Source: Subtercola boreus | Lineage (GTDB): Bacteria; Actinomycetota; Actinomycetes; Actinomycetales; Microbacteriaceae | Length of the DNA: 64,000 nt | Assembly: GCF_003399645.1 (NCBI RefSeq) | Contig: NZ_NBXD01000012.1 | Coordinates: forward strand, 62,001-126,000 | Reading direction: 5' to 3' | Part shown: in pieces, positions 10,726 through 29,631 of the stretch | How the letters are laid out: the number at the start of each line of letters is the position of its first letter | How positions within the stretch are numbered: position 1 is the first letter of the stretch | The notes under the pieces: model-generated | Told to the model about the DNA's origin: nothing | Databases searched by the model: none | What the model saw: only the letters and a program-made list of their open reading frames with translations | Position numbers and translations under genes: made by a program

Positions 10726-10791
10726 GAGTTCTAGAGTAGTGAGTGCGTGTTACGGGCTTGTTCACGTTCAGTTGTGTTGGGAGTGCCGGGT

Positions 10792-11973: not shown

Positions 11974-11989
11974 CCCGTCCGGGTGCGGG

Positions 11990-13879
11990 TCAGCGGCGGC
12001 GGCGGGTGCCGAAGATTCCGGAGACGACGCTGGTCAGGATGGTGCGCGTCGCGCGTGAACCCAGAACGTCTTCGAGGATGTTCGGCTGCGAGCGGGAGCT
12101 GGTGCGGGAGCCGGTTGCGCGGCGATCCCGCTCGCGGTCGGCCGCAGCATCCTGGGCCCGGGCCTTCGCGAGAGAGCGGTCGTAGTCGGCCTGTGCTTTC
12201 GCCTCGGCTTTGGCGGCGCCTGCGGCAGCCTTCTGGGAGGCCCTTTCGGCGGCGGCCTGCTGTTTCGCTGCTGCCGCGGCGACCTTCGCGTCTTCGACGG
12301 CCTGCTCCGCGGCTGCAGCGGCCTCGGCGGCGGTGTTCAGCTTCGCCGTCAGGATCTCCCGCGCAGATTCGCGGTCGATGACCGGACCGTACCGGGCCAG
12401 GAGGGGCGATGCGGTGACCGCAGCGTCGATCTGGGCATCCGGAGTCGGAGACATCGAGCCCTGCGGCGCGCGGAGCCGCGTCCACGCGACCGGGCTGGGA
12501 GCGCCCTTCTCGTTCATGACCGTGACGATCGCTTCTCCCGTAGCCAGGTTCTGCAGCACTTCGGCAAGGTCGTAGCCCGATTTCGGGTACGTCGAGACGG
12601 TCGCGCGCAACGCTTTTGCGTCATCCGGTGTGAAGGCTCGCAGCTGGTGCTGGATGCGCGACCCGAGCTGTGCGAGCACGTCGCCGGGCACGTCTTTCGG
12701 CGTCTGCGTGACGAAGAAGATACCGACGCCCTTGGAACGGATGAGGCGCACCGTCTGCGTGATCGACGCGATGAAGTCCTTCGACGCGTTGGTGAAGAGC
12801 AGGTGCGCCTCGTCGAAGAAGAACACGAGCTTCGGCTTGTCGAGGTCGCCGACCTCGGGCAGGTCGTTGTAGAGATCGGCCAACAACCACATCAGGAAGG
12901 TGGAGAACAGGGCGGGTTTGTCGGCGACTCCGGGCACCTCGAGCAGACTGACGATTCCGCGGCCGTCAGCCGTGGTGCGCAGGAACTCCGCCGTGTCGAT
13001 CTCGGTCTCGCCGAAGAAGACGTCGGCGCCCTGGTCGGCGAACGTGATCAGTTCGCGGAGGATCACGCCGACGGTCGCGGGCGAGATGCCGCCGAGGTCG
13101 ACGAGTTCGGCCTTGCCGGCGTCGCTGGCGAGGTAGCTGAGCACGGAGCGGAGGTCGCTCAGATCGAGCAGGGGGAGCCCGGCGCGGTCGGCGTAGTGGA
13201 AGACGAGGCCGAGGCTCGACTCCTGGGTGTCGTTGAGCCCGAGCACTTTGCTCATGAGCAGCGACCCGAAGCCAGCGACAGTGGCGCGGATCGGGATGCC
13301 GCGCCCCACGCCGCCGAGGCTGAAGAACTCGGTCGTGGTTGCGGCCGGCTGCCAGTCCTGGCCGATGCCACCCGTGCGTTCGAGGAGTTCGGGGCTGCTG
13401 GTGCCTGCGCTCGCGATGCCCGAGAGGTCGCCCTTGATGTCGGCGGCGAAGACGGGCACACCCTGGGCCGCGAGCTGTTCGGCCAGCACCTGGAGGGTCT
13501 TGGTCTTGCCGGTTCCGGTGGCGCCAGCGACGAGCCCGTGGCGGTTGGTCATGGCGAGCGGGATGCGCACCTGCACGTCGGGCAGGGCGTTGCCGTTGAC
13601 GAGGGCGCCCATTTCCAGGGCTGCCCCCGTGAAGGAGTAGCCGGCTCGGATGGTGTCGACGGCGGCGGGTGGGAGGGGGGCGGGGGGTGCTGGGGTGGCG
13701 GGTGCAGCAGCGGCGGGTGCTGGGGTGGCGGGTGCTGGGGTGGCGGCGTTCGACTGGGCCTGGGCCTGGACATCCTGAGCCCGCTTCAGCGCGGACTCGG
13801 CCGCCTCCTGAGCTACACGGGCGGCTTCGACCGCGGCGGCGGCCTCCTCTTGGGCGATCCGGAGTGCGTCATCGGTCAT
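11990..13879 (-). CDS. HerA-like helicase/ATPase, DUF853 (YjgR) family
   Basis: This 629-residue protein of the HerA-FtsK P-loop superfamily has a Walker A motif near residue 120 (GATGTGKTKTLQ) and Walker B around FFFDEAHLLF. The C-terminal DUF853 domain includes GVGIFFVTQTPKDVP. Residues 1-40 form an Ala/Glu-rich helix and about 40-80 an Ala/Pro linker built from short repeats. About residues 510-590 are a charged Ala/Lys/Glu coiled coil ending in basic sequence. Family members are implicated in DNA processing, but the role of this branch is unknown. TAAGCT sits six bases upstream of the ATG, suggesting a leaderless message. The gene converges on the desulfurase with 16 bases between stops. 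Confidence 0.88.
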   Translation of the reverse strand: MTDDALRIAQEEAAAAVEAARVAQEAAESALKRAQDVQAQAQSNAATPAPATPAPAAAAPATPAPPAPLPPAAVDTIRAGYSFTGAALEMGALVNGNALPDVQVRIPLAMTNRHGLVAGATGTGKTKTLQVLAEQLAAQGVPVFAADIKGDLSGIASAGTSSPELLERTGGIGQDWQPAATTTEFFSLGGVGRGIPIRATVAGFGSLLMSKVLGLNDTQESSLGLVFHYADRAGLPLLDLSDLRSVLSYLASDAGKAELVDLGGISPATVGVILRELITFADQGADVFFGETEIDTAEFLRTTADGRGIVSLLEVPGVADKPALFSTFLMWLLADLYNDLPEVGDLDKPKLVFFFDEAHLLFTNASKDFIASITQTVRLIRSKGVGIFFVTQTPKDVPGDVLAQLGSRIQHQLRAFTPDDAKALRATVSTYPKSGYDLAEVLQNLATGEAIVTVMNEKGAPSPVAWTRLRAPQGSMSPTPDAQIDAAVTASPLLARYGPVIDRESAREILTAKLNTAAEAAAAAEQAVEDAKVAAAAAKQQAAAERASQKAAAGAAKAEAKAQADYDRSLAKARAQDAAADRERDRRATGSRTSSRSQPNILEDVLGSRATRTILTSVVSGIFGTRRRR

Positions 13880-13955
13880 GCCGCCAGCTTACGACCGAGC
13901 GCCCGCGGCCACGTCGTCGAGCTGACGGTACCGACAGGGTCGTCGCTGCTTCCGT

Positions 13956-14930
13956 TCAGGGGCGGAGCACCCCGGCCGCGGCATAGATCGCGTCGATCAG
14001 CACCATGTTGGCGACGCTGTCCGCACCTTCGGTGAGGAGCGGCACACCTGACGAGAGCCCGTCGACAAGTGCGTCGAGCTGGTGGTCGTAGGTCTCTTCG
14101 CCCCTGACCGTCCAGTTTCTCTCGACCCCGTCGATTCTCGAGGTGAGAGAGTGCCCGCGTGAGGGGAACACGAGGTTCTCGACGTGCAGCGTGCCGAGGG
14201 TTCCGACAGCGTCGAACGACGCATTCAGGTGCGGATGCTCGACCATCGCCGAGGTCACGCGAGCCTCCACTCCCGAGGGGAAGCGCAGCAGAGCATCCAC
14301 GCTGAGGTCGGCGCCGAGCGGATTGAGCGTGGCCGACGCCTCGACCACCTCCGGCTCCTCGCCGAGGAACGCCCGCACCCAGTGCAGCGGGTAGCAGCCG
14401 AGGTCCATCAGGGAACCGCCGCCGAGCAGGGGGTCGTGCCGCAGTGACGCCGGGTCGAAGACGTTGGTGCTCGAGAAGTCGGCGCTGACGGAGAGGATCT
14501 CGCCGAGCATCCCCGATGCCCGCACCGCGTCGAGTTCGGCGCTGAGGGGGTGGTACCGGTCGTGGAACGCCTCGATGAGTCGGAACCCCGACGCGTCGGC
14601 GGCATCCACCATGCGCTGGGCTTCGGCGGCGTTCATCGCGAAGGGTTTCTCGCAGAGCACATGCTTGCCGGCTTCGAGCGCTCGGATCGACCATTCGGCG
14701 TGCTCAGACGGGGGAAGGGCGTTGTAGACGAGATCGATCTCGGGGTCGTCGAGCAGCGCGGCGTAGCCCTCGTAGCTCCGTGCGATGCCGTGTTCGGCAG
14801 CGTAGCGGGCGCCCGAAGCGGCGCTGCGTGCCGCGACGGCCAACACCGCGACATCCGTTCGCCGCCGAGCGGGACGGATGATGGCTGCGGGTGCGATTCC
14901 GGCCGCGCCGAGGATTCCGATGGTCAACAT
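13956..14930 (-). CDS. Gfo/Idh/MocA family NAD(P)-dependent oxidoreductase
   Basis: The product (324 residues) is a sugar dehydrogenase-type oxidoreductase. It has an N-terminal Rossmann fold (GILGAAGIAP near residue 5), the EKPF motif (LCEKPFAMNAAEA, about 95-105), and the C-terminal sheet domain with GGSLMDLGCYPLHW. The motifs resemble the dihydrodiol/xylose dehydrogenase-like branch. Substrate is not determinable. It is the last gene of the uronate operon. Its ATG overlaps the aldehyde dehydrogenase stop, and GGAG precedes it by 10 bases. The upstream open frame contains aldehyde dehydrogenase coding sequence in another frame and is not part of it. It may act on a sugar acid or lactone feeding the pathway. 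Confidence 0.85.
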   Translation of the reverse strand: MLTIGILGAAGIAPAAIIRPARRRTDVAVLAVAARSAASGARYAAEHGIARSYEGYAALLDDPEIDLVYNALPPSEHAEWSIRALEAGKHVLCEKPFAMNAAEAQRMVDAADASGFRLIEAFHDRYHPLSAELDAVRASGMLGEILSVSADFSSTNVFDPASLRHDPLLGGGSLMDLGCYPLHWVRAFLGEEPEVVEASATLNPLGADLSVDALLRFPSGVEARVTSAMVEHPHLNASFDAVGTLGTLHVENLVFPSRGHSLTSRIDGVERNWTVRGEETYDHQLDALVDGLSSGVPLLTEGADSVANMVLIDAIYAAAGVLRP

Positions 14931-16393
14931 GGCTGAGCGACTCCATTCACACGCTGGGAAACACCCCAGGGGTTCGACGACTGCACCGCAGCGGGCAGCC
15001 GGCCCTCGTCGAAGTTCTGGTATGCGACGGGGCGGAGGAACCGTCGTATCGCTTCGGCCCCCACTGAACCGTACATCGCGTTCGACGACGCCGGCCACGG
15101 ACCACCGTGGTGCATCGACCACGAGACCGCGACCCCGGTCGGCCAGTCGTTCAGCAGCACCCGGCCCACGCGGCGGCCGAGGTGCTCGACGAGTGCGGTG
15201 ATGTCGTCTTCGTCTTCGGCGAAGACCGATGCGGTGAGCTGGCCGTCGAGTGCGTCGATGGTGTCGAGCACGTCATCGAGATCGTCGTACGAGACGATGA
15301 CCGACGAGGGGCCGAACCGTTCCTGGAACACCGACGGGTCGGTGCGGGCCACCGCCACCGAGGCGCTCCAGAGCACCGGCGTCGCGGAGCGGGCGGCGGG
15401 GTCGCGAGATCCGGTCACACCGGGCACCCCGGTCACGCCCTTCGTTTCCGCGAGTCGTCCAATGCCGGCGTGGAATTCCCGCGCGACACTCTCGGTCACC
15501 ATCGGCGCCGCCGAGGTGCCCTGCAGCAGTGTCAGGAGATGCTCGCCCGTCACGCCGGGGCCCGGCGCGAACAGGATGCCGGGGCTCGTGCAGAGCTGCC
15601 CGTTGCTGACGGTCATCGACGAAACCAGTCCGGCCTCGATCTCCGCGCGTCTCGCCGCCCATGCCCGGGGCGTGACGATGACGGGATTGACGCTTCCCAT
15701 CTCCGCATAGAACGGAATAGGGACGGGCCGCTCTTCGGCCACGCGGGTCAGCGCGACACCGCCGCGGATGCTGCCGGTGAACGCGCCGGCCGCGATGTGC
15801 GGATGCTTCAGCACCTCGACGGCGAGCTCGTCGCCCTCGACGAGCGTGAAGAGGGCGGCCGGCAGTCCTGACTCCGAGAGGGCGGCTGAGACGAGGGTCT
15901 CGAGCAGGCGCGCGAGCTCCGGATGCCCGGGGTGGCCCTTCGCGACCACGGCGCAACCCGCAGCCCACGCCGAAGCGGTGTCGGTTCCGACGACCCCGAA
16001 CGCGAAGGGGAAGTTGCTCGCCGCGAACACCAGCACCGGACCGAGCGGAACGTTCATGCGCCGGTGGTCTCTGACAGGCGGCTTCGCCTCAGCGTTCTCT
16101 TCGGTGATCGAGATGTCGAGCCACGACCCCTCGGCCACCACCTCGGCCGCCAGTCGCACTTGTTTGATCGTGCGGGTGAATTCTCCGGCGAGTCGATCTG
16201 CCGGGATGAGGGTCTCCCGCGCGGCGACCGCGACGGCTTCGTCGGCCCGCTCCGCAAGGAACGACGCGACCCTGTTCAGGGCTGCGCTCCGCTCGAGGGG
16301 GGTCGTCGACGCCCAGAGTTCTGACGCTCGGTGGGTCTCGTCGAGGGCGTCGGTCAGGGCGGAGGCGTCGGTGGCGACATCCAGAACCGTCAT
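14924..16393 (-). CDS. 2,5-dioxovalerate (alpha-ketoglutaric semialdehyde) dehydrogenase
   Basis: This is probably the last enzyme of oxidative uronate breakdown, converting 2-oxoglutarate semialdehyde to 2-oxoglutarate with NAD(P)+. The 489-residue aldehyde dehydrogenase has the substrate-pocket region VFAASNFPFAFGVVG, the nucleotide motif AFTGSIRGG, and catalytic Cys268 in NGQLCTSPG. The C-T-x-P-G context is typical of ketoglutarate-semialdehyde dehydrogenases rather than succinate-semialdehyde enzymes. The ATG at 16393 overlaps the enolase-family stop as ATGA. Co-location with KDG dehydratase and uronate dehydrogenase supports the substrate call. Confidence 0.9.
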   Translation of the reverse strand: MTVLDVATDASALTDALDETHRASELWASTTPLERSAALNRVASFLAERADEAVAVAARETLIPADRLAGEFTRTIKQVRLAAEVVAEGSWLDISITEENAEAKPPVRDHRRMNVPLGPVLVFAASNFPFAFGVVGTDTASAWAAGCAVVAKGHPGHPELARLLETLVSAALSESGLPAALFTLVEGDELAVEVLKHPHIAAGAFTGSIRGGVALTRVAEERPVPIPFYAEMGSVNPVIVTPRAWAARRAEIEAGLVSSMTVSNGQLCTSPGILFAPGPGVTGEHLLTLLQGTSAAPMVTESVAREFHAGIGRLAETKGVTGVPGVTGSRDPAARSATPVLWSASVAVARTDPSVFQERFGPSSVIVSYDDLDDVLDTIDALDGQLTASVFAEDEDDITALVEHLGRRVGRVLLNDWPTGVAVSWSMHHGGPWPASSNAMYGSVGAEAIRRFLRPVAYQNFDEGRLPAAVQSSNPWGVSQRVNGVAQPC

Positions 16394-17559
16394 CGCGTGG
16401 TGCTCACAGTGTTGGCGGCGATGTAGTCGAAGTCGATGGGGTCGCCGAGTCCGCTGGCGGTCGGCAGCGGCACGTTCCCGTTCTCGTCGATCGCGTCGAC
16501 GACGGCCGTGAGGTGCGGCAGCGGTGTCTCGGAATCGAGGTGCGGGTGCAGCAGCCCCGTCTCGTACCAGCGGCCGTTCGGCGCTCCACCGAGCACGGCG
16601 AGCGAACCGACGCCCCCGCCGTGGATCTCGCAGTCCATGCCGAAGGATTCGGCGAGGTGGCAGACCTTCAGGGCCGACGAGATGCCGCCGGCGCTGTGCA
16701 CACCGATGCGCAGGATGTCGACGGCGCCCGAAGCGGCCCACTCTGCCCGCGAGCGGAACTTGCCCTCGACGCTCTCCGGCCCGGCGATGAGCAGGTCGAC
16801 CTGGTCGGCGAGCCACTTGTACGACGACATGGAGTATTCGTCCATCGGCTCCTCCATCCAGGCGTAGTTCAGTTTGTCCAGTTCGCGGGCGATGTAGAGG
16901 GCGTCGGAGCGGTTGTACCAGTGGTAGCAGTCGAGCATCAGCACGATGTCGGGTCCGACGGCTTCGCGAACGGCGGCGCAGGCGCGAACGTCCATCCGGG
17001 CATCCGGAGCGAAGGAGACGGGCGGCATCCAGGTGTGCAGCTTCACGGCTTTGTAGCCCTTTGCCACGAGGTCGACGGCGAACGCTGCGTAGTCGTCCGG
17101 GCTGCTGAGCCCGCCCACCACGTCGTCGCCGCACATCGTGCTGGCGTAGGCGGGCACTTCGTCGCGCACCCCGCCGAGCAGCTTCCAGACGGGCTGGTCG
17201 AGGCGACGGCCGGCGTAGTCCCACAGGGCCTGCTCGACGAACGACAGGGCCCGCTCGTGCAGCCGCCCGTAGGCTCCGCGCTGCGCGAGGTAGAGGTCCT
17301 GCCAGATCTTCTCCCGGCGGAGCGGATCCTGCCCGACGAGCAACGGCCGGATGTACTGAGTGAGAACGCCTTCCCTCAGGTAGTCGCCCGCGACCAGGCT
17401 GAACCCCTGATTGCCCTCGTTGTCGGTGATGGTCAGCAGCATGCCGGTTGCGGGCACGCCGGTCTCGCTGGGGTGGGCGTGGCCCTCCGAGTCCTCCCAG
17501 TTGCGGGTGAGCGTGGAGAAGGACGTCATGCTAACGCTTTCGACGACGGTGGAGTTCAT
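16390..17559 (-). CDS. Enolase-superfamily (mandelate racemase/muconate lactonizing type) sugar-acid dehydratase
   Basis: The 389-residue protein has the enolase-superfamily N-terminal capping domain and a C-terminal barrel. Visible elements are KAVKLHTW (KxH in place of the usual KxK base motif), metal ligands in LMLDCYHWY, WMEEPMDEY and IAGPESVEG, and the catalytic His in CEIHGGG near residue 315. In this operon it most likely dehydrates D-galactarate or D-glucarate to 5-dehydro-4-deoxyglucarate. Alternatively it could act as a lactone cycloisomerase, as in Agrobacterium Gci. Both flanking genes overlap it by four bases. The exact substrate cannot be read from sequence. Confidence 0.82.
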   Translation of the reverse strand: MNSTVVESVSMTSFSTLTRNWEDSEGHAHPSETGVPATGMLLTITDNEGNQGFSLVAGDYLREGVLTQYIRPLLVGQDPLRREKIWQDLYLAQRGAYGRLHERALSFVEQALWDYAGRRLDQPVWKLLGGVRDEVPAYASTMCGDDVVGGLSSPDDYAAFAVDLVAKGYKAVKLHTWMPPVSFAPDARMDVRACAAVREAVGPDIVLMLDCYHWYNRSDALYIARELDKLNYAWMEEPMDEYSMSSYKWLADQVDLLIAGPESVEGKFRSRAEWAASGAVDILRIGVHSAGGISSALKVCHLAESFGMDCEIHGGGVGSLAVLGGAPNGRWYETGLLHPHLDSETPLPHLTAVVDAIDENGNVPLPTASGLGDPIDFDYIAANTVSTTR

Positions 17560-18782
17560 CGGTCGGGTTCCGTTTCTGTGGGTATGGATCGGGTTCTTGC
17601 GCCGGGCAGTTCGGCGAGCCCGAGGGTGTCGAAGTCGGCGGGGCGCTGGGCGCCGAGGTGGTAGAGAAAGAGCTCGTCGAGCGCGCCGATCGGCGGGGTG
17701 CCGGTCGGATGCGAGTCAGCCAGGGCCTCGCGCACAGTCGCGCCGGAGCGGGTGAGGTTCAGCGTGCCGGCAACCCGGGCGGCGCCCCACTCGGCGAAGG
17801 TCTGCGCGTCGGCCCAGCCGGCGCCCCCGGGAGCCGAGAGTTCGGCGCAGAAGCCGCTGGCTCCGCCGGGCTGAGCGTCGGCCGAGGTCACGGAGGCGAA
17901 CGGGCCGAACGTCTGCTGGTGCGCGGTCGCCGCGAGCGTGAGGTCGAGTGGTTGCCCGCCCTCCGGTTCGGCGAGTTCGGACAGGAAACGCGTGCTGGCG
18001 CTCCTCCGCAGCTCGTCGAGCTGTACGAGTACCGCGGCGACTTCGTCCGCCGTGGCTGCGGCACCGGGACGACCACCCCCACGAGCTCGGCCACGCGCGA
18101 AAGCCGCCCGGAGAACCGCACCTGCGGCCGCCAGATCGATGCCGCGCTGCCGGGCATCCTGTTCGCATGCTGTGCAGAAGCAGACTGAGAGCAGGTCGAT
18201 CGCACTGTCATCGAGGGCACTGAACGGGGATTTGTCGTGGGCGACGAGGTGCCGGAACCCGAGCGGCTGGAGGCTTTCGATGAGAAAGCGGTCGACTCCG
18301 GTCTGGTTCAGCACGTCGACGAGCAGGCCGCGGGCGTACTCCCTTACTTCGGCGTTCGACGGGCAGAGCGCGAATCGACTTCGGTTGCCGAACAGGTCGA
18401 CCGTCGAGAACGCTGCCTCGGGCGAGCCCGCTTCGTGGTCTGCATGGGTCAGAACGACCCAGGCGCGAACGCCCAGCCCCGCCTCACGGGCGGTGTCGAC
18501 CGAGCGCGGGAAGAGATTGTGCGGCAGCCCCACGGGTGGGCGGGGTCGAAGCGCTCTGCCCACCCAGCGGTCGGAGCCTGGGAGGTAGTGGGCGCTCCGC
18601 TGCTGCTGGATGACCGCGACGCTGCCATCCGGCCTCCAACTGAGTGCGCGCACCGCGTGGTAACTCGACGCGATCGCCAGTTCATCGACGCCGCCCTCTC
18701 GCCACTGGGCCGCGCGTCCCGGATGATCGACCAGGTCCCACGGGTAGGCCTGTCCGATCATCCGGAGCGTTGGAGACTGCAC
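17556..18782 (-). CDS. Unrecognised protein with CxCxxC motif in the uronate operon
   Basis: I do not recognise this 408-residue product with certainty. It is soluble with no signal peptide. It begins GQAYPWDLVDHPG, has a LALCPSNAEVREYARGLL-like region near 140, and carries LSVCFCTACEQDA around residue 190. Alternating strands and helices, and the cysteine motif as sometimes seen in glycoside-hydrolase-like barrels, suggest a TIM-barrel hydrolase. This is inference. Its stop overlaps the enolase-family start (ATGA), and its GTG start lies three bases after the binding-protein stop, so it is firmly in the operon. ATG 18761 is an alternative start. It is a candidate for the missing lactonase or a uronide hydrolase. 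Confidence 0.75.
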   Translation of the reverse strand: MQSPTLRMIGQAYPWDLVDHPGRAAQWREGGVDELAIASSYHAVRALSWRPDGSVAVIQQQRSAHYLPGSDRWVGRALRPRPPVGLPHNLFPRSVDTAREAGLGVRAWVVLTHADHEAGSPEAAFSTVDLFGNRSRFALCPSNAEVREYARGLLVDVLNQTGVDRFLIESLQPLGFRHLVAHDKSPFSALDDSAIDLLSVCFCTACEQDARQRGIDLAAAGAVLRAAFARGRARGGGRPGAAATADEVAAVLVQLDELRRSASTRFLSELAEPEGGQPLDLTLAATAHQQTFGPFASVTSADAQPGGASGFCAELSAPGGAGWADAQTFAEWGAARVAGTLNLTRSGATVREALADSHPTGTPPIGALDELFLYHLGAQRPADFDTLGLAELPGARTRSIPTETEPDR

Positions 18783-18785
18783 GAG

Positions 18786-20117
18786 CTACTTGCCGCCGAA
18801 CTGCGTCTGGTACTCGGCCTCGGCGGTGTTCACCTTGTCGGCCCAGTCACTCGCGAACTGCTGTGCGGTGGTCTGCTTCAGAAGCACCGCCTGCCACTCC
18901 TGCGCCATGTCGGTCAGGATCGAGTTCCAGTCCGGCAGGTAGAGCGGCGAAGTGACGATGGTGTTCGCCTTGTCGCCCAGTGCGTCGATGCTCACCGAGA
19001 TGGGCTGGTTGCCGGCGACCCAGGCGTCGGCACGGGAATCCGAGTTGCCGGGGATCTGGTTCGTCGTCTGGTTCCACTGGCTGTTGATGTCGTGCGAGAG
19101 GAGGAACTGCGTGAACTTCCACGCCGGATCCGGGTGCTTCGAGCCGGAGAACACCGCGGGCCCTTCGGGGGTCGGTGCGACGAGCGTGCGGGCGCCCGAG
19201 GAAGTGGCCGCGGGCATCGGGGCCGCCACGGCGACACCTTCGCCGAAGGCCTTCACATGGTTGGCTGCGGAGCCGAGGTTGTGCTGCACCATCGCTGCCT
19301 TGCCCGAGTCGAACGCCGTGATCATGTCCTGATAGGCGTAGCTCACGTCGGCCTGGGAGGTGTCGACGTTGTAGATGTCGGCGAACTGCTGCAGGCACGA
19401 CGCGACCTTCGGGTCACTCAGCGTCGTCTTGTCGTCTGCGTCGAAGAAGCTGCTGATGGCGCTGCACGAGTAGGCGACGGGCACGAGCTGGTTCACGCTG
19501 CCCGCGCCGCCGCGCATCGCGAAGCCGTACTGGCCGGCCCCGGAGTTGGTGAGCGTCTTCGCCGCCGTATAGAAGTCTGCCCACGTGTCGGGAGGGGAGA
19601 CCCCGGCAGCCTTGAACTGATCCTGTCGATACCAAATGGTGTCGGGGGTGGCCGTCATCGGCAGGATGTAGAGCTTGTGGTCGAACGAGGATCCGTGAGC
19701 GGCGGTAAGGGCATCTTCGGCGATGTGGCCGTTCAGGTCACTGGAGCTCAGCATGTCGTCGAGCGGCGTCAGGGCGCTCTGGGCGGCCAGGCTGCTCGCC
19801 ATCCAGCCGACGACGATTCCGACGTCGGGGGTCGAGCCGCCGGCGACGGCCGTCTGGTACTTCGTTGCGGCGTCTGAAGCGGGGATGCCCACGTAGTCGA
19901 CCTTGATAGCCGGGTTCTGCGCCTCGAACTTCGAGATGATGTCCTGGTAGAGCGGAGTGCGGTCGGGGCCACCGTTGTTGTCCCAGAACGTGATGGTCAC
20001 GGGGTTTTCGGCGGTTCCCTCGTCACCTCCGGATGACGAGCTGCAGGCGGCGAGGCCGCCCAGCAGGCTGGTCGCAGCGACCAGCGCCAGACCCTTGAGT
20101 ACGCGGTTTCTCTTCAT
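18786..20117 (-). CDS. ABC transporter sugar-binding lipoprotein (extracellular solute-binding family 1)
   Basis: This 443-residue lipoprotein is the substrate-capturing subunit of the adjacent permease pair. The N-terminus is a type II signal peptide with basic start, hydrophobic core and lipobox LAAC at about residue 25, followed by a Ser/Gly linker. The mature part starts NPVTITFWDNNGG and has the two-lobed family 1 fold with a conserved Trp/Asp-rich C-terminal half. GAGGAG lies about seven bases before ATG 20117. By context it should bind uronic acids or oligouronides. No ATP-binding subunit is encoded nearby, so a shared MsiK/UgpC-type ATPase elsewhere must energise it. Confidence 0.92.
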   Translation of the reverse strand: MKRNRVLKGLALVAATSLLGGLAACSSSSGGDEGTAENPVTITFWDNNGGPDRTPLYQDIISKFEAQNPAIKVDYVGIPASDAATKYQTAVAGGSTPDVGIVVGWMASSLAAQSALTPLDDMLSSSDLNGHIAEDALTAAHGSSFDHKLYILPMTATPDTIWYRQDQFKAAGVSPPDTWADFYTAAKTLTNSGAGQYGFAMRGGAGSVNQLVPVAYSCSAISSFFDADDKTTLSDPKVASCLQQFADIYNVDTSQADVSYAYQDMITAFDSGKAAMVQHNLGSAANHVKAFGEGVAVAAPMPAATSSGARTLVAPTPEGPAVFSGSKHPDPAWKFTQFLLSHDINSQWNQTTNQIPGNSDSRADAWVAGNQPISVSIDALGDKANTIVTSPLYLPDWNSILTDMAQEWQAVLLKQTTAQQFASDWADKVNTAEAEYQTQFGGK

Positions 20118-20161
20118 TTCATTTCTCCTCTTTGAGTGTTGTGGTGCTGCGGGGTGGAAGG

Positions 20162-21034
20162 TCAGCCCTTGACCGCTCCGGCGCTGACGCCCTGCACGAG
20201 AAAGCGCTGCATGAATGCGAAGACGATCACGACGGGCACCGCGGCGACGACGCCGCCTGCAGCCAGGGCGCCGTAGTCGGCGGAGTACTCGCCGATGGCC
20301 GAGTTGAGGCCGATCGGCAGAGTGAACCTGTCGTTGTGGTTGATGAACATGAGGGCGAACAGGAAGTTGTTCCACGCCCCGATGAAGGCGAACGAGCCGA
20401 CAGCCACGATCGCCGGCCGGAGGAGCGGGAGCACGACAGCGCAGAACGCCCGGAACCTCGAGCATCCATCGATCATTGCGGCCTCTTCGAGCTCGATCGG
20501 GATGTTCTTCAGAAAGTTGCTCATCAGAATGGCGCAGAGCGGCAGTTGGAAGACGGTGTCGGAGATGATCAGTGCGAACAGGTTGTCGATGAGCCCGAGC
20601 TGCTTGAAGATCAGGAACAGCGGGATGAGGAGCATCGCGCCCGGCACGAACTGGGTCGCCAGCAGCACCACCATGAACGGTGACTTGCCGCGGAACTCGA
20701 AGCGGGCGAGCGCGTAGCCGGTGAGGAGCGCGAGCACGACCGTGAAGAGCAGCGTGCAGAGAGCAACGGCGACGCTGTTCCAGAGGTAGGTCGAGAAGCC
20801 GAGGTCGGTCCACACCGTCTTGAGATGGTCGAACGTGAACGGAACCGGAAGGGGCAGGGTGCTTCCGGTCTGCCGGAAGGCGAAGACGATCATCCAGTAG
20901 AACGGAACGAGCGTGAAGAGCAGGAACGCGCCCACGGGCAGGCCATGGTTGAAGATCCCGCTCCTGGTCTCGCCGGGAGCCCGCTCTCTCGTGGGGCGAC
21001 GGTTCAGGGCCGGCGGTGAGGCGAGCGCGGTCAT
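20162..21034 (-). CDS. ABC sugar transporter permease, MalG type
   Basis: The 290-residue inner-membrane permease has six hydrophobic segments and the EAA loop near residue 190 (IELEEAAMIDGCSRFRAF), which docks the ATPase. The C-terminus is the short VQGVSAGAVKG tail characteristic of MalG-like subunits. The N-terminal ~30 residues are cytoplasmic and basic. Its start overlaps the stop of the MalF-type gene by four bases, and the binding protein follows after 44 bases. It is part of the presumed uronate importer. Confidence 0.92.
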   Translation of the reverse strand: MTALASPPALNRRPTRERAPGETRSGIFNHGLPVGAFLLFTLVPFYWMIVFAFRQTGSTLPLPVPFTFDHLKTVWTDLGFSTYLWNSVAVALCTLLFTVVLALLTGYALARFEFRGKSPFMVVLLATQFVPGAMLLIPLFLIFKQLGLIDNLFALIISDTVFQLPLCAILMSNFLKNIPIELEEAAMIDGCSRFRAFCAVVLPLLRPAIVAVGSFAFIGAWNNFLFALMFINHNDRFTLPIGLNSAIGEYSADYGALAAGGVVAAVPVVIVFAFMQRFLVQGVSAGAVKG

Positions 21035-21993
21035 TTGCTTTCCTTCCGAGAGGCGCGGCCGAAGTAGAGGTAGATCATGCTGAAGACCAGAAGGATCACG
21101 AAGCCGGCGATGGTGAGCGCCGAGCCGTAGCCGAAGTTCCGCGCTCCGACCGCCTCGTTGACGATGTAGAGGGGGAGGGTCGTCGTGGCGCCCGCGGGCC
21201 CTCCGCCCGTGAGGGTGTAGAGCAGATCGACGTTGTTGAACTCCCAGACCGCCCGCAGCAGTGTGGTGATGATGATCGCCTCGCGGAGGTACGGGAGGGT
21301 GACGTAGCGGAACTGTTTGAACGCACTCGCCCCGTCGACGTCAGCGGCCTCGTAGACGTCTTTCGGAATCGACTGCATGTCGGCGAGCAGCATGATCGCG
21401 AAGAACGGCAGTCCCCGCCAGAGCTCCGCGATCACGGCTGCCCAGAAGGCCGATCCACCCGCCGCGAGCGGCGCGAAGCCGCTCTGGGCACCCAGCTGGC
21501 TGAGCACGTCGGCGATTCCCGTCGTGGGGTTGTAGATGAGCAGCCAGATCTGCGTGGCGAGCACGCCAGAGATGGCCCACGGGGCGAACATCAGGGCACG
21601 CACGAGCGCGCGACCGCGGAACACCCTGTTCAGCAGCAGGGCGAGGGCAAGGCCGAGAACGAGCTGCAGCACGACTTCGGCGACCACCCACACGCTGGTG
21701 ATGCCGAGCGAACTCCAGAACTGCGGGTCGTCGAACAGCATGGTGTGGAAGTTGTCGAGGCCGATGAATTTCGTCGCCCACGGCTTGCTGAGGTTGTACT
21801 GGAACAGACTGAAGTAGACGACTGTTCCCACCGGAACCGCGATGAACACGGTGATCAGCACGATCGCCGGGGTGATGAGTCCATAGGGGCCGCGGAACCA
21901 GCGGCCCCGGCGCTTCCGCGCCTGCCGTGGTGGTGATCCGCCGGCAGCAGCTGCCGGCGCGACTGGCGTCTTTGCCAGGATGGTGGAGGTCAT
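21031..21993 (-). CDS. ABC sugar transporter permease, MalF type
   Basis: The 320-residue permease has about six membrane segments and the EAA loop around residue 220 (YEAADVDGASAFKQFRYVTLP). The N-terminal ~40 residues are Ala/Pro/Arg-rich and cytoplasmic. It partners the MalG-type subunit with which it overlaps by four bases. It begins nine bases after the KDG dehydratase stop, which places the transporter under the same promoter as the catabolic genes. Confidence 0.92.
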   Translation of the reverse strand: MTSTILAKTPVAPAAAAGGSPPRQARKRRGRWFRGPYGLITPAIVLITVFIAVPVGTVVYFSLFQYNLSKPWATKFIGLDNFHTMLFDDPQFWSSLGITSVWVVAEVVLQLVLGLALALLLNRVFRGRALVRALMFAPWAISGVLATQIWLLIYNPTTGIADVLSQLGAQSGFAPLAAGGSAFWAAVIAELWRGLPFFAIMLLADMQSIPKDVYEAADVDGASAFKQFRYVTLPYLREAIIITTLLRAVWEFNNVDLLYTLTGGGPAGATTTLPLYIVNEAVGARNFGYGSALTIAGFVILLVFSMIYLYFGRASRKESK

Positions 21994-22002
21994 GGTTCCT
22001 TC

Positions 22003-22947
22003 CTATGCGTGTGCGCCGGTCGCGTCCCCGGCGACCAGGGATCGCTCCTCGAGGGCCGTGCGGGCCGTCGCGAGCAGGTTCCGCAGATCGTCGAGATCTG
22101 CGGCGAGGGGTGCGGTCAACGGCGCCCGTACGGGACCGAGCGGTCGGCCATCCACACTCGCAGCGGCCTTGACCAGCGAGACGTGATAGCCGAGCTGGCG
22201 GTCGCGGATGCGAGTGAACGGGATGAAGAACTCCCGCAGCAACCACTCGAGCGTCTCGTCGTCGTCGGCGGCGAAGGCGCGGTAGAACGCCAGCGCGATA
22301 TCGGGGGCGAAGGCGAACACGGCGGACGAATACAGGGGAACGCCCACGGCGCGGTACGCCCGCATGGACACCTCGGCGGTCGGCAGTCCGTTGAAGAACA
22401 TGAACGAGTCGAATCCTGCTGCTCGCACGGCGGAGACGGTGGCCTGCATCCGGGTGAGGTCGCCGACTCCGTCCTTCAGACCGATGACGTTCGGCAGTTT
22501 CGCGAGTTCGACGACGACATCGGGGGAGAAGATCATTCCTGACCGCTGGTAGACGATCACCGGGATGGGGGACGACGCCGCGATCTGGCTCACATAGTCG
22601 ACGAGTCCCCGTTCCGAGGCGAGGATCAGATATGGCGGCAGGAGAAGCAGCCCTTCGGCGCCGGCGCGGCCGAGGCCCCTTGCCGTCTCGATGGCAGCAG
22701 CCACGCTGCCGCCGGTGCCCACCAGAACCGGAACCCGACCCGCTGCCGCCTCGACCGCCACGGTACCCACCTCGATGACTTCGGCGACCGTCAGAGCGTG
22801 GAATTCGCCGGTGCCGCAGGCCGCGAACACACTGGCCGCACCGGCTGCGACGCCGTCCGCGACGTGCCGCGCGAGGAGGTCGACGTCGACCGATCCATCA
22901 TTGGCGAACGGCGTCACCGGGAAGAAGAGGAGGCCTTGTAGGTCCAT
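22003..22947 (-). CDS. 5-dehydro-4-deoxyglucarate dehydratase (KDG dehydratase, DapA family)
   Basis: The enzyme dehydrates and decarboxylates 5-dehydro-4-deoxy-D-glucarate to 2-oxoglutarate semialdehyde. The 314-residue protein matches this DapA subfamily: GLLFFPVTPFANDGSVD at the N-terminus, FAACGTGEFHALT in place of the usual GTTGE, IVYQRSG with the conserved Tyr, and the Schiff-base lysine in NVIGLKDGVGD near residue 182. ATG 22947 is chosen because AAGGA lies ten bases upstream. A GTG at 22956 is too close to that site. It is the first gene of the eight-gene minus-strand operon and faces the IclR gene across an AT-rich control region. Confidence 0.93.
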   Translation of the reverse strand: MDLQGLLFFPVTPFANDGSVDVDLLARHVADGVAAGAASVFAACGTGEFHALTVAEVIEVGTVAVEAAAGRVPVLVGTGGSVAAAIETARGLGRAGAEGLLLLPPYLILASERGLVDYVSQIAASSPIPVIVYQRSGMIFSPDVVVELAKLPNVIGLKDGVGDLTRMQATVSAVRAAGFDSFMFFNGLPTAEVSMRAYRAVGVPLYSSAVFAFAPDIALAFYRAFAADDDETLEWLLREFFIPFTRIRDRQLGYHVSLVKAAASVDGRPLGPVRAPLTAPLAADLDDLRNLLATARTALEERSLVAGDATGAHA

Positions 22948-22983
22948 TACTTTCACATCCTTGAAAACATTTCATAACCTTGT

Positions 22984-23004
22984 ATGATGTTACGAGTACA
23001 TCAT
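22984..23004. promoter_or_regulatory. Inverted repeat in the divergent kdgD-iclR control region, candidate operator
   Basis: ATGATGT-N7-ACATCAT is a perfect 7-bp inverted repeat in an unusually AT-rich ~107-bp intergenic stretch. It lies between the divergent KDG dehydratase and IclR genes, 37 bases from the former start and 50 from the latter. Size and position suit binding of the adjacent IclR-family dimer and control of both directions. Confidence 0.55.
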
Positions 23005-23054
23005 CTGTTTTTCATCATTGTCAACACCATGACTCGAACAATCGAGGATTCTGC

Positions 23055-23876
23055 GTGAGCATAGATCGCATGACGCAACCTGCTGCGGCCAAGCCGTCGG
23101 CGAGCAAGAACACCGAGACCGAGGTCAAGTCGGCCGCCCGAACCATCGAGCTGCTCGAGATGCTCGCCGGCGAGACGCGGCCTCTCACCCTCTCCGAGAT
23201 CGCCTCCCGACTCTCCTTCCCTGTCTCGAGCGTGCACCAGCTGCTGCGCACGCTCGTCTCCCGCGGGTGGCTGGCCACGACCACAGACGGAGTCGGGGGC
23301 GGGTACACGATCGGGGTGCGGGCGCTGATGACGGGGATGTCATTCCTCGAACGCGATCCCGTCGTGCAGGCGATGAAGCCGATTCTGACGATGCTCCGCG
23401 AGGAGCTCGGCGAGACGATCCATCTCGCCCGGCTCGACGGGTCACGCATGGTCTACCTGGTCAGCCGTGAATCGGAGCACCAGCTCCGCGCGGTGAGCCG
23501 AGTCGGGCAGGCTCTGCCCGCACACGCGACGGGTCTCGGCAAGGCAGCGCTCGCCGCGCTGCCTGACGAAGAGGTGCAGCAGCGACTCGGCGAGACCCTC
23601 GTGCAGATCACGCCCCACACGATCGACTCGATGCCCGAACTCCTTGCCGATCTGGCATTGACACGGCGCCGCGGGTACGCCGCCGAGCAGGAGGAGAACA
23701 CGGTGGGCAATGCCTGCATCGCGGTCGCCATCCCCGACGTTCCGGGGCACTATGCGGTCAGCTGCTCTGTGCCGTTGATGCGCATGACACCGGAACGGGC
23801 ATCCACCATTGCCCAGACCCTGCAGGTGGGCGTGCGAATGGCCTCGAACTCACTCGCCGGACAGGGGATGCGCTGA
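23055..23876 (+). CDS. IclR-family transcriptional regulator of the uronate island
   Basis: The 273-residue regulator has an N-terminal winged helix-turn-helix (about 30-90, with LTLSEIASRLSFPVSSVHQLLRTL spread over residues 46-69). The C-terminal IclR effector domain follows, with GLGKAALAALPDEEV and the late motif GNACIAVAIPDVPGHYAVS. GTG 23055 is chosen because GAGGA (23044-23048) lies six bases upstream. It overlaps the uronate dehydrogenase start by one base (TGATG), so the two are co-transcribed. It probably senses a uronate or aldarate intermediate and controls the divergent operon through the inverted repeat at 22984-23004. Confidence 0.9.
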   Translation: MSIDRMTQPAAAKPSASKNTETEVKSAARTIELLEMLAGETRPLTLSEIASRLSFPVSSVHQLLRTLVSRGWLATTTDGVGGGYTIGVRALMTGMSFLERDPVVQAMKPILTMLREELGETIHLARLDGSRMVYLVSRESEHQLRAVSRVGQALPAHATGLGKAALAALPDEEVQQRLGETLVQITPHTIDSMPELLADLALTRRRGYAAEQEENTVGNACIAVAIPDVPGHYAVSCSVPLMRMTPERASTIAQTLQVGVRMASNSLAGQGMR

Positions 23877-24649
23877 TGGTCGCCGAGCCACTCGTTCTGA
23901 TCACCGGTGCGGGCGGGGCCCTCGGCACCGTGCTTCGCCACAGGCTCCCCGACCTCGGCTGGCGTGTGAGAGGTCTCGAGCTACGACCGGGCTCCGACGA
24001 CGCGCCGGACACCGTGGTCGGCTCCGTCGCCGATCCCGACGTGATGAAGGTCGCCTGCGAGGGTGTCGACAGTATCGTGCACCTCGGTGGCACCTCGGTT
24101 CCCGGGCACGGGTGGGGCGCGTACCTCGAGAACAACATCCACGGCACCCAAACGGTGCTCGAGGCCGCGCGGCTCGCCGGGGTGCGCCGGGTGGCGTTGG
24201 CCAGCAGCAATCACGCGGCCGGCTATGTCGAGCGGCGCGATCGGCCCCTGCCCGCGGATGTGGTGGTGCGCCCCGACAGCTTCTACGGGGTGAGCAAGGC
24301 CGCGATCGAAGCGCTCGGTTCCTTCTACGCGGATGAGTACGGGTTGCAGACGACGAGCATCCGGATCGGGTCGTGCTTTCCCGAGGTCACCTCGTGGCGG
24401 ATGCTCTCCACCTGGTTGAGCGAAGACGACTTCGTGCGGCTGGTCGAGGCTGCTCTCAGGGGCCCCTGGCACGGCCACAGCACGGTCTGGGGAATCTCGC
24501 GGAACACGCGCCGCTGGTGGTCGCTCGAGGCTGGCGAGAGAATCGGTTACCGCCCCCAAGACGATGCCGAAGCCTTCGCAACCACACTTGTCGAGGAACC
24601 GACCGACCGGGTTGGGGGGTCTTCCCCGCCAGCTCTCGTCAGAGGGTGA
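23876..24649 (+). CDS. udh: NAD-dependent uronate dehydrogenase (extended SDR)
   Basis: Udh oxidises D-galacturonate or D-glucuronate to the aldarolactone, the entry step of the oxidative pathway. The 257-residue protein has the Rossmann motif TGAGGALG, VHLGGTS, the ASSNHAAGY segment, the catalytic Tyr-x3-Lys in RPDSFYGVSKAA, and RIGSCFPEVTSWRMLSTWLS. The motifs and spacing closely follow Agrobacterium uronate dehydrogenase from memory. It is coupled to the IclR gene. Its last ten bases overlap the convergent nuclease-family gene. The remaining steps lie on the opposite strand (KDG dehydratase, ketoglutarate-semialdehyde dehydrogenase, enolase-family dehydratase). Confidence 0.9.
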   Translation: MVAEPLVLITGAGGALGTVLRHRLPDLGWRVRGLELRPGSDDAPDTVVGSVADPDVMKVACEGVDSIVHLGGTSVPGHGWGAYLENNIHGTQTVLEAARLAGVRRVALASSNHAAGYVERRDRPLPADVVVRPDSFYGVSKAAIEALGSFYADEYGLQTTSIRIGSCFPEVTSWRMLSTWLSEDDFVRLVEAALRGPWHGHSTVWGISRNTRRWWSLEAGERIGYRPQDDAEAFATTLVEEPTDRVGGSSPPALVRG

Positions 24650-25691
24650 GCGTCGCCAGGATCGCGCGGTGGTCGCTGTCGCCCGCGGTGAGAGTGGTGT
24701 TCGCCGTGACGGTCATGCCGCGCTGCAGGAGATGGTCGAGGCGTGTCACCGGGAGCGTCGACGGCCAGGTGTTGCCGAACATCCCGCTCGTCTGGTTCGG
24801 CTCGGCGAGCTGGGAGAAGATGCCGCTCATCGCCCGGTCGGTGGATGCCGCGTTGAAGTCGCCGACGGCGATGACGCGCTCGTTCTCGTCGTTCGGCAGC
24901 GTGTCTGCGAGTGCGGTGAGCATCGAGTTGCGGGCCGAGACGTCACCCGGCCGGGCAGACGCGGCGTGGATGACGTAGATGCTCACGAGTCCCTGCGGGG
25001 TGTCGAGGTCGGCGGCGAGCGCACGGTTCCAGCCGAGGCCGAGGTTGAGCGGCTGGGCGTTGATGACGGGGTATCTGCTCCAGAGGCCGACAGTGCCGAC
25101 GCCGAACGAGTACGGGTACTGAGCCGCCAGCGTCGACGAGATGCTGTCGAAGTCGGCGTCGGTCATCTCTTCGAGGGCGATCACGTCGGCTCCGGTCGCG
25201 GCAAGCGCACGGGCGGAGGTGACACCGGTGCCCGACGATGCCTCGATGTTCTGGCTCGCGACGGTGAGGGCGGTGGTGCCGGTGCTCGTGGCGCCGGTGC
25301 CGGTGGTGCCTGCCGCGACGGATGCCGGCGAGCTCCACGCCAGCGGCACGATGGCCGGAACGAACAGCAGCGCCCAGACCAGCGACGGAACGAGCACGGC
25401 GAAAAGCGAACGGCCGTACCGGCTGACCACTCCGAGTACGAACAGAACGGGTATGACGAGACCGAACCACGCAATGACGCTGTCGACGACGAGGCCGACA
25501 CCACCGACATCCGGAATCCACCGGTGCAGCAGCAGAAGCCCGGCGAGCGCGAGCGACAGAACGACGACGCAGCCGGCCAGGGCAGGGCGTCGTTGTTTCG
25601 TGGCGCGGGCAGGCCGGTCGGAAGCGTCACGGCTTCTGTCGTCGGGCGCGGTTCGGGTGGAAGGGGAGAGCAGGGACATCGGTTTCATCAT
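24639..25691 (-). CDS. Membrane-anchored endonuclease/exonuclease/phosphatase family protein
   Basis: The 350-residue protein begins with a charged cytoplasmic stretch. Three hydrophobic helices (about 32-55, 58-80, 85-110) and a Gly/Thr-rich linker follow. An extracytoplasmic EEP domain then carries VASQNIEAS, DVIALEEMTDADF (metal Glu), VIAVGDFNA (Asp/Asn) and SDHRAIL (His). The layout matches actinobacterial membrane EEP proteins of unknown substrate, possibly phosphodiesterases or nucleases. ATG 25691 is chosen as the first of three close Met codons; no convincing ribosome-binding site decides between them. It is divergent from mnmA and overlaps the udh tail by 11 bases. Confidence 0.82.
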   Translation of the reverse strand: MMKPMSLLSPSTRTAPDDRSRDASDRPARATKQRRPALAGCVVVLSLALAGLLLLHRWIPDVGGVGLVVDSVIAWFGLVIPVLFVLGVVSRYGRSLFAVLVPSLVWALLFVPAIVPLAWSSPASVAAGTTGTGATSTGTTALTVASQNIEASSGTGVTSARALAATGADVIALEEMTDADFDSISSTLAAQYPYSFGVGTVGLWSRYPVINAQPLNLGLGWNRALAADLDTPQGLVSIYVIHAASARPGDVSARNSMLTALADTLPNDENERVIAVGDFNAASTDRAMSGIFSQLAEPNQTSGMFGNTWPSTLPVTRLDHLLQRGMTVTANTTLTAGDSDHRAILATLTL

Positions 25692-25749
25692 CGCCGATCT
25701 GTCTGAGGCTTTCGTGTCAGAGCTGTGCACAGGTTCGCCGTGTCGCGGG

Positions 25750-25758
25750 TTATCCACA
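25750..25758 (+). promoter_or_regulatory. Perfect DnaA box upstream of mnmA
   Basis: TTATCCACA matches the consensus DnaA box exactly. It sits 50 bases before the mnmA ATG, in the region divergent from the nuclease-family gene. A 10-bp palindrome, CTGTGCACAG (25723-25732), lies just upstream. With only one perfect box there is no sign of an origin here. A regulatory or titration role is possible. Confidence 0.45.
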
Positions 25759-25795
25759 GATGCGGGTGACCCCCGCGGCTGTCGGCCGTGGCGCA

Positions 25796-25801
25796 TACAC
25801 T
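25796..25801 (+). promoter_or_regulatory. -10 box of a probable leaderless mnmA promoter
   Basis: TACACT ends six bases before ATG 25808, and no Shine-Dalgarno sequence is present, so the first transcribed base should be the A of the start codon. Confidence 0.55.
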
Positions 25802-25807
25802 TAAAAC

Positions 25808-26959: not shown

Positions 26960-27000
26960 GCCACTCCGCCACACACTCGAGAACGCAACGAAAACGGTGA

Positions 27001-29631
<2,631 letters not shown>

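Follow-up and report, generated by a model that had tools for sequence, protein, structure and literature searches.

A conserved protein of no named family in an actinobacterial hexuronate cassette: a putative aldarolactone hydrolase

Gene content of the cassette

Ten intact open reading frames occupy positions 13956-24649 of the window, the 64-kb stretch of DNA analysed here. Eight lie on the minus strand, and an iclR-udh pair is divergent on the plus strand. Pfam and NCBIfam profiles assign families to nine of the ten products; the 408-aa product, referred to below as UNK, has none. By coordinate, the minus-strand genes encode an accessory Gfo/Idh/MocA oxidoreductase (13956..14930; Pfam PF01408), an aldehyde dehydrogenase (14924..16393; Pfam Aldedh), an enolase-superfamily aldarate dehydratase of the 4hcd/4mmw/1rvk type (16390..17559), UNK (17556..18782), an ABC transporter solute-binding protein with an ATG start at 20117 behind AGGAG (18786..20117; PF01547), permease 2 (20162..21034; PF00528), permease 1 (21031..21993; PF00528) and KdgD, a 5-dehydro-4-deoxyglucarate dehydratase (22003..22956). 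The plus strand encodes an IclR-family regulator (23055..23876; PF01614, PF09339), with a GTG start at 23055 behind AGGA and an alternative TTG start at 22980, and the uronate dehydrogenase Udh (23876..24649). Neighbours on the same strand overlap or are at most 44 bp apart, and this spacing is operon-like; with 23055 as the IclR start, 98 bp separate the divergent kdgD and iclR genes. An initial annotation counted eight linked genes on one strand, which is right for the minus strand but leaves out the divergent regulator and Udh. The iscS/mnmA site lacks the cassette in three of six same-genus genomes, the other three giving no clear picture, and the cassette looks inserted there. Base composition gives no foreign mark (67.1% G+C for the island versus 68.5%).

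There is sequence evidence for most of the pathway enzymes. Udh matches the solved uronate dehydrogenase 3rft at E 1.8e-52, with the SSNH, YGVSK and RIGSC...MLSTW stretches aligned, and KdgD scores 386.6 bits against a cut-off of 278 for the PRK03620 subfamily and matches 4ur7 at E 1e-53. The closest structure is a uronate dehydrogenase for Udh and a keto-deoxy-galactarate dehydratase for KdgD. Both identifications made in the initial annotation therefore hold, although KdgD falls under the stricter TIGR03249 equivalog cut-off (304.9 versus 373.95). The annotated enolase-family aldarate dehydratase is likewise borne out at the level of sequence: it matches 4mmw/4hcd at E 1.3e-132 over nearly its full length, with KLHTW, EEPMDE and GPES aligned, and is 73% identical to its Naasia counterpart. 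We take 4hcd and 4mmw to be D-glucarate dehydratases carrying the database title of isomerase/lactonizing enzyme and, together with 1rvk, to be enolase-family proteins of Agrobacterium. The aldehyde dehydrogenase has 1eyy (E 1.2e-96) and 3v4c (E 8.3e-84) as its nearest solved relatives, and its Cys context, NGQLCTSPG, aligns. Its superfamily is certain, as annotated, but it is below every cut-off among 25 of 39 NCBIfam families listed, including two for 2,5-dioxovalerate/KGSA dehydrogenases; 2-oxoglutarate semialdehyde is its probable substrate from context. The nearest solved relatives of the Gfo/Idh/MocA protein are glucose-fructose oxidoreductase and sugar 3-ketoreductase. PMC4476818 describes a Udh from Streptomyces viridochromogenes as already characterised.

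The importer has no ATPase gene within the cluster, as noted initially. Elsewhere in the genome, one UgpC/MsmK-type ATPase exceeds its family cut-off (G000:C24:85609-86685; 466.6 bits versus 432). The solute-binding protein and two permeases would take up a small uronide or a hexuronate, probably together with a shared ATPase whose gene lies elsewhere. From its divergent position, IclR probably controls both arms. A putative operator, the inverted repeat TGAAA-N3-TTTCA, lies by the kdgD start (22962..22974). The looser form TGAA-N5-TTCA, found also at window position 54260, occurs 20 times in 80 related loci (described below) versus 3.7 expected (mean of three mononucleotide shuffles), and 17 of the 20 sites fall between -350 and +40 relative to the start of a core or importer gene. 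The full form occurs once in the 80 loci, away from such starts. A second palindrome with 7-bp arms, ATGATGT-N7-ACATCAT (22984..23004), is possibly due to chance; there are 101 such 7-bp-arm repeats in the 64 kb, and none of the 80 loci contains this exact sequence pattern.

A conserved protein without a family name

UNK matches no Pfam or NCBIfam family, and its best PDB sequence match has an E value of 0.69. We noticed no paper on it among those listed by searches of a set of open-licence papers, in which it has no name to search by. At least 276 relatives were found; the best 80 were kept as loci, a set that leans to close relatives. AlphaFold predicts a confident barrel in two models (pLDDT 87.5 and 95.7), and the nearest solved folds in Foldseek are mostly glycoside hydrolases. 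These neighbours include a GH29-type fucosidase, Cwp19, beta-amylase, PgaB, GH42 and, with the window model only, a GH156 exosialidase; the named matches have 8-13% identity and query TM scores of 0.43-0.60. As predicted, this fold favours a glycosidase at least as well as a lactonase. GHL10 and GHL6 matches below the cut-off in two of ten scanned relatives point the same way, although neither the window protein nor any of the ten meets the cut-off of a glycoside hydrolase family profile.

The conserved residues argue in more than one direction. Acids conserved at 90% of 57 sequences are D16, D20, D/E133, E169, D/E183 and D/E370. The pattern of clan GH-A is two Glu. UNK has the barrel in its predicted models but not the acids on strands 4 and 7: E169, on the strand counted as 4, is present in 57 of 57 sequences, and strand 337-342, counted as strand 7, has no acid conserved at 90%. 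This departure from the classical pattern tells against a glycosidase and is compatible with an isomerase, an epimerase or a non-catalytic partner. Around E169 are the invariant cysteines C140 and C201-x-C203-x2-C206, which may form a Cys4 metal site; the pattern presumably resembles the Zn site of GH42, again in favour of a glycosidase. An invariant polar set (Y41, H42, R45, W108, H113, E169, H178, H182, K184 and H375) looks catalytic, which speaks against a non-catalytic role.

UNK tracks udh

UNK is closely tied to udh. Among the 80 loci, udh lies within about 10 kb in 75, kdgD in 64 and a GlucD-type dehydratase gene in 76, the last being less than 120 bp upstream of UNK on the same strand in 67. 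The five loci below the udh threshold comprise L036 (a match of 87 bits), L043 and L109, whose contigs measure 4.2 and 4.4 kb, and two loci with no match, L069 and L108. Given udh in 75 of these best 80 of 276 relatives, many Actinobacteria have the arrangement. We therefore reject rarity of the pathway in this phylum; the initial annotation had described it as known mainly from proteobacteria. Among 64 kdgD loci sampled from genomes taken to be actinobacterial, UNK is present in all 13 that bear udh and in none of the 51 that do not. This sample combines 24 loci (all those listed by one search apart from the window itself) with 40 hand-chosen ones (23 + 17; one to three per genus); nine of the 13 come from one genus and two from another, the contigs of L336 and L337 appear from their lengths to be those of L047 and L048, and four of the 51 stretches are short (L300, L314, L318 and L331, at 12.5, 9.6, 12.5 and 4.7 kb). 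The best udh scores leave a gap from 63 to 167 bits, which makes the split by udh independent of threshold.

Could UNK instead follow another gene of the cassette? Nine of the 13 udh-kdgD loci have no GlucD-type match (L210, L211, L212, L214, L216, L217, L218, L220 and L329), nor do the stretches of L061, L077 and L106. Among the 80 UNK loci, 22 combine udh and kdgD but show no ABC part that scores above threshold. Thus, UNK tracks udh rather than the dehydratase or the importer. ABC permease matches also track udh (12 of 13 versus 14 of 51 kdgD loci), as a glycosidase fed by the importer would lead one to expect, although the 22 loci without an ABC part nearby count against that reading. Matches to gfo over threshold show the reverse (0 of 13 versus 8 of 51).

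The tie between UNK and udh fails outside kdgD loci. Of 50 Udh-like matches outside the eight clusters, 40, which belong to the window's family, have no UNK or kdgD match nearby. One of these 40, L144, shares 65% identity with the Udh of the window, and the motifs of the 40 are similar to those of cluster Udhs, with no clear separation. That every Udh-like match marks a uronate cluster is rejected on the basis of these 40 loci and of Udh-like SDRs in hpa clusters. Distant UNK relatives are found in other contexts, with RidA, alanine racemase, GH20 and D-aminoacylase. L077 carries a diverged second UNK copy beside GH35 and GH88-type genes, and a neighbour family that recurs in 12 of the 80 loci is pectate lyase, judging from L042, the single member scanned (PF00544); both are what a glycosidase might keep as company. 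The recurrent families come from a crude frame caller that missed some genes, including the UNK of L077. From its tie to udh in kdgD loci, UNK very probably acts in the uronate half of the pathway.

The lactone step and the role of UNK

Udh would make an aldaro-1,5-lactone from a hexuronate, the enolase-family enzyme would dehydrate the aldarate, KdgD would dehydrate and decarboxylate, and the aldehyde dehydrogenase would finish, giving 2-oxoglutarate. We regard it as highly likely that the cassette encodes this oxidative hexuronate pathway; the reading is well supported by sequence, from which the enzyme activities and regulation are also deduced. The initial annotation arrived at the same uronate to 2-oxoglutarate set with importer and IclR regulator, and to that extent it stands. 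Its description of the set as complete-looking passes over one step if the dehydratase does not itself use the lactone, because no product is a recognised lactonase. Indeed, none of the ten matches an SGL or amidohydrolase profile. Elsewhere, the genome encodes a clear SGL protein and a second, weak SGL match. With one SMP-30 protein from this genome as the only query, matches were found in none of the 13 udh-kdgD loci and in one of the 80 UNK loci.

We tentatively propose, at somewhat less than an even chance, that UNK fills this step as a putative hydrolase: built as a barrel of glycoside-hydrolase type, possibly with a Cys4 metal site, it would open the Udh lactone to aldarate. The broader claim is more tentative still, namely that UNK is the founding member of a new aldaro-1,5-lactone hydrolase family, which would replace SMP-30, Gli and Gci non-orthologously in Actinobacteria and some Xanthomonadales. 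Gci is an enolase-family protein. According to PMC6353982, it acts on the lactone itself. By analogy, the window dehydratase might do so as well, and no such step would then be left for UNK. The window enzyme scores 445 bits to 4hcd versus 105 bits to 4ggb, which we take to be Gci. Lactone opening or rearrangement may also be spontaneous; the change from 1,5- to 1,4-lactone appeared so in the same paper (PMC6353982).

The hydrolase proposal has a serious competitor, which we rate as possible though not probable: UNK could be a cytosolic glycoside hydrolase of a new family, with a GH42/GHL-like barrel, releasing uronate from imported di- or oligosaccharides. The fold, the cysteines, the importer and the neighbouring carbohydrate-active genes described above favour it. 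Beyond the missing acid, however, it would be surprising to find a substrate-specific glycosidase in all udh-kdgD sets sampled from the phylum. UNK might instead isomerise the lactone, epimerise the aldarate or serve as a partner without catalytic activity, but we consider this unlikely; A. tumefaciens does have an isomerase, Gli (PMC6353982), whereas isomerisation by UNK has no direct support. That the cassette works on a sugar acid other than hexuronates is very improbable: the aldehyde dehydrogenase and Gfo/Idh/MocA protein reach no listed substrate-specific cut-off and Udh-like SDRs are also part of other pathways, those of hpa clusters for example, but Udh, KdgD and the enolase-family dehydratase fit one known route, and the closest structures agree.

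What would follow if UNK were the aldarolactone hydrolase? First, a lactone step without an assigned enzyme would be filled in the plant-sugar-acid route of many Actinobacteria. Second, a family of at least 276 relatives would gain a function. Third, the enzymes could serve aldaric-acid production. Fourth, a lactonase on a glycosidase-type barrel would neatly illustrate how enzymes are reused, because a glyconolactone resembles the glycosidase transition state. Should UNK turn out to be a uronosidase, it would represent a glycosidase family without a Pfam or NCBIfam name.

Comparison with known systems

The predicted fold of UNK is like that of the GH42, GHL10, GHL6, Cwp19 and GH156 barrel hydrolases, from which UNK differs in reaching no Pfam cut-off and in having no conserved acid on strand 337-342. 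SMP-30-type lactonases are beta-propellers, unrelated in sequence to UNK. Like UNK, they adjoin udh in their gene sets: in Caballeronia and Cupriavidus plasmids, udh is directly followed by SMP-30, and UNK was not found. Plasmids of Ensifer and Pseudosulfitobacter carry both udh and kdgD but neither a UNK nor an SMP-30 match, which counts against the proposed role of UNK. In P. putida, the lactonase of this type is PP_1170, which matters for growth on uronates (PMC9007349). Enzymes named for the lactone step elsewhere are Gli, Gci, UxuL and UxuF, and the pathway of A. tumefaciens and Pseudomonas consists of Udh, Gli/Gci or a lactonase, KdgD and KGSADH (both from PMC6353982). The cassette similarly clusters Udh, KdgD, an enolase-family dehydratase and an aldehyde dehydrogenase. 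Unlike that pathway, it has no recognised lactonase or Gli-type amidohydrolase, contains UNK and IclR, and resides in an actinobacterial host. Its dehydratase is of the 4hcd/4mmw/1rvk type, whereas most other UNK clusters have the GlucD type (76 of 80). The cassette is a known kind of gene set, and the unnamed but conserved UNK is its most informative part.

Genes of the cassette

The cassette at 13956–24649 comprises ten genes, every one intact. Eight lie on the minus strand and encode a Gfo/Idh/MocA oxidoreductase, an aldehyde dehydrogenase, an enolase-superfamily dehydratase, a 408-aa protein (17556–18782; here called UNK), a solute-binding protein, two permeases, and the 5-dehydro-4-deoxyglucarate dehydratase KdgD. 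The IclR regulator and uronate dehydrogenase (Udh) genes have the opposite orientation. Pfam and NCBIfam assign families to nine of the ten products; UNK matches no family in either, and its best match among PDB sequences is at chance level (E 0.69). The enolase-superfamily dehydratase is close to 4hcd, 4mmw and 1rvk (E 1.3e-132), Udh is a relative of 3rft (E 1.8e-52), and KdgD, a relative of 4ur7 (E 1e-53), scores above the PRK03620 subfamily cut-off and below the stricter TIGR03249 cut-off. We infer the substrate assignment of the aldehyde dehydrogenase, whose nearest structures are 1eyy and 3v4c. There is no ATPase gene within the cluster; one UgpC/MsmK-type ATPase above cut-off is encoded elsewhere in the same genome. 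Family searches recognized no lactonase among the ten products. The enolase-family enzyme might itself process the Udh lactone, as Gci does.

UNK and its genomic partners

UNK is a conserved partner of uronate genes. A scan of a species-genome collection uncovered 276 relatives, and the best 80 of these have within ~10 kb udh (75/80), a GlucD-type dehydratase gene (76/80), kdgD (64/80), an aldehyde dehydrogenase gene (61/80) and iclR (59/80). At 67 of these best 80 loci, UNK is preceded by a same-strand GlucD-type gene whose end lies <120 bp away. Hosts of UNK relatives are chiefly Actinobacteria, plus Rhodanobacter, Rudaea and one Acidobacteria MAG. The window and Naasia (locus L032) form a branch with a different dehydratase type and importer around UNK; both dehydratase types occur together at two MAG loci, L054 and L083. 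In the window's family, taken to be Microbacteriaceae, 12 of 299 genomes have an UNK relative, the window genome included, and the other 11 relatives divide into seven among uronate genes (L021–L026, L031) and four in other contexts (L027–L030).

Some related loci have unusual features. No ATG, GTG or TTG lies around the expected start of the Naasia UNK frame (L021 9533, equivalent to L032 9989), which opens in register with an ATC directly after the stop codon of the solute-binding protein gene. A DUF2264 protein is encoded next to udh in Rhodanobacter (L077 4009–5274), and a Rudaea frame (L106 4079–5329) resembles it by eye.

Is UNK tied to udh or to the pathway as a whole? With kdgD as an anchor chosen independently of UNK, we compared 64 loci, 24 from a phylum sample and 40 from samples at order and class level, selected by genus. 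UNK is present at 13/13 loci with udh and 0/51 without (Fisher p 7.6e-14, relatedness ignored); the 13 belong to four genera, which contribute nine, two, one and one loci. The best udh score is ≤63 bits across the 51 loci and ≥167 bits across the 13. The split is visible within a single genus, g91, since nine of its loci have udh and UNK and six have neither. GlucD-type genes occur at 4/13 udh-bearing versus 20/51 udh-less loci, and aldehyde dehydrogenase genes at 3/13 versus 31/51; set against the UNK counts, these numbers indicate that UNK tracks udh in kdgD loci, not the aldarate half. ABC permease matches are likewise skewed to udh loci (12/13 versus 14/51), and the SMP-30 lactonase family is matched at 0/13 udh-bearing loci.

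The linkage breaks down elsewhere. In the window's family, 40 Udh-like genes located apart from kdgD have motifs much like those of cluster Udhs, yet UNK was found near none of them. One of these orphan Udh-like genes (L144 9183–9968) shares 65% identity with the window Udh; the stretch around it has no match to kdgD, UNK or a dehydratase. Udh matches occur in 223 plasmid records, nine of which were inspected; four of the nine resemble uronate loci, with SMP-30 in two of the four and UNK in none. Ensifer and Pseudosulfitobacter plasmids have udh and kdgD, with neither an UNK nor an SMP-30 match. Distant UNK relatives occur in 150 plasmid records, none aligning across >80% of the query length. 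On a haloarchaeal plasmid (L018 8871–11149), an enolase-family gene and an UNK relative overlap by four bases, adjoining IclR and ABC genes.

Possible functions of UNK

What might UNK do? We tentatively favor a lactonase that would open the lactone made by Udh over an enzyme that cleaves uronides, for three reasons. First, UNK is tied to udh. Second, the sets at 22 UNK loci have no importer found nearby. Third, SMP-30 is matched at none of the 13 udh-bearing kdgD loci and at one of the best 80 of 276 UNK loci, and it follows udh on Caballeronia and Cupriavidus plasmids, where UNK was not found.

The alternative, that UNK releases uronate from an imported uronide, is only slightly less likely and has evidence in its favor. 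A family that recurs beside UNK at 12/80 loci has a pectate lyase as its single scanned member, and a diverged second UNK-like copy in a Rhodanobacter MAG (L077 18475–19836) adjoins GH35, GH88/DUF4861 and MFS genes. The predicted fold is also of glycoside hydrolase type. Confident AlphaFold models of the window UNK (pLDDT 87.5, pTM 0.89) and a Microbispora member (pLDDT 95.7, pTM 0.93) match mostly glycoside hydrolase barrels in Foldseek, namely Cwp19, a GH29-type fucosidase, beta-amylase, PgaB, GH42 and, from the window model only, a GH156 exosialidase; the best of these named matches have query TM 0.43–0.60 and 8–13% identity.

Whether lactonase or not, UNK has many fixed residues. Y41, H42, R45, W108, H113, C140, E169, H178, H182, K184, C201, C203, C206, R259 and H375 are invariant over 57 sequences, position 16 is D in 56/57, and no acid in strand 337–342 reaches 90% conservation. 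Eight relatives from other contexts retain Y41, H42, W108, E169 and the four cysteines, and vary at R45 (2/8), K184 (4/8) and H375 (5/8). Because they vary there, R45, K184 and H375 may serve in recognition of uronate.

Origin of the cassette

In the window, an iscS-like/HerA-like/exonuclease-phosphatase/mnmA/ligA neighborhood (10747–29631) is interrupted by the cassette. Three of six same-genus genomes have a cassette-free site. The HerA-like and exonuclease/phosphatase genes, which border the cassette in the window, are adjacent ahead of mnmA in G090, whereas the exonuclease/phosphatase gene has an iscS-like neighbor in G286 and G248. For G153, G203 and G007, the stretch stops too early to show the site. 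None of the six has an UNK match, or a Udh match at E 1e-30, and the Naasia set lies in a different neighborhood (birA-like and purK-like genes, named by eye). Thus, the cassette was probably inserted, despite a G+C content near that of the window.

Comparison with known systems

The pathway and its enzymes are known. The Udh product is a lactone processed by Gli, Gci, UxuL or UxuF in other bacteria (PMC6353982), the PP_1170 lactonase matters for growth on uronates (PMC9007349), and an actinobacterial Udh has already been characterized (PMC4476818). We noticed no publication on UNK in the open-licence literature searched. If UxuF is a homologue of UNK, the lactonase reading would be strengthened and the novelty of UNK lowered.
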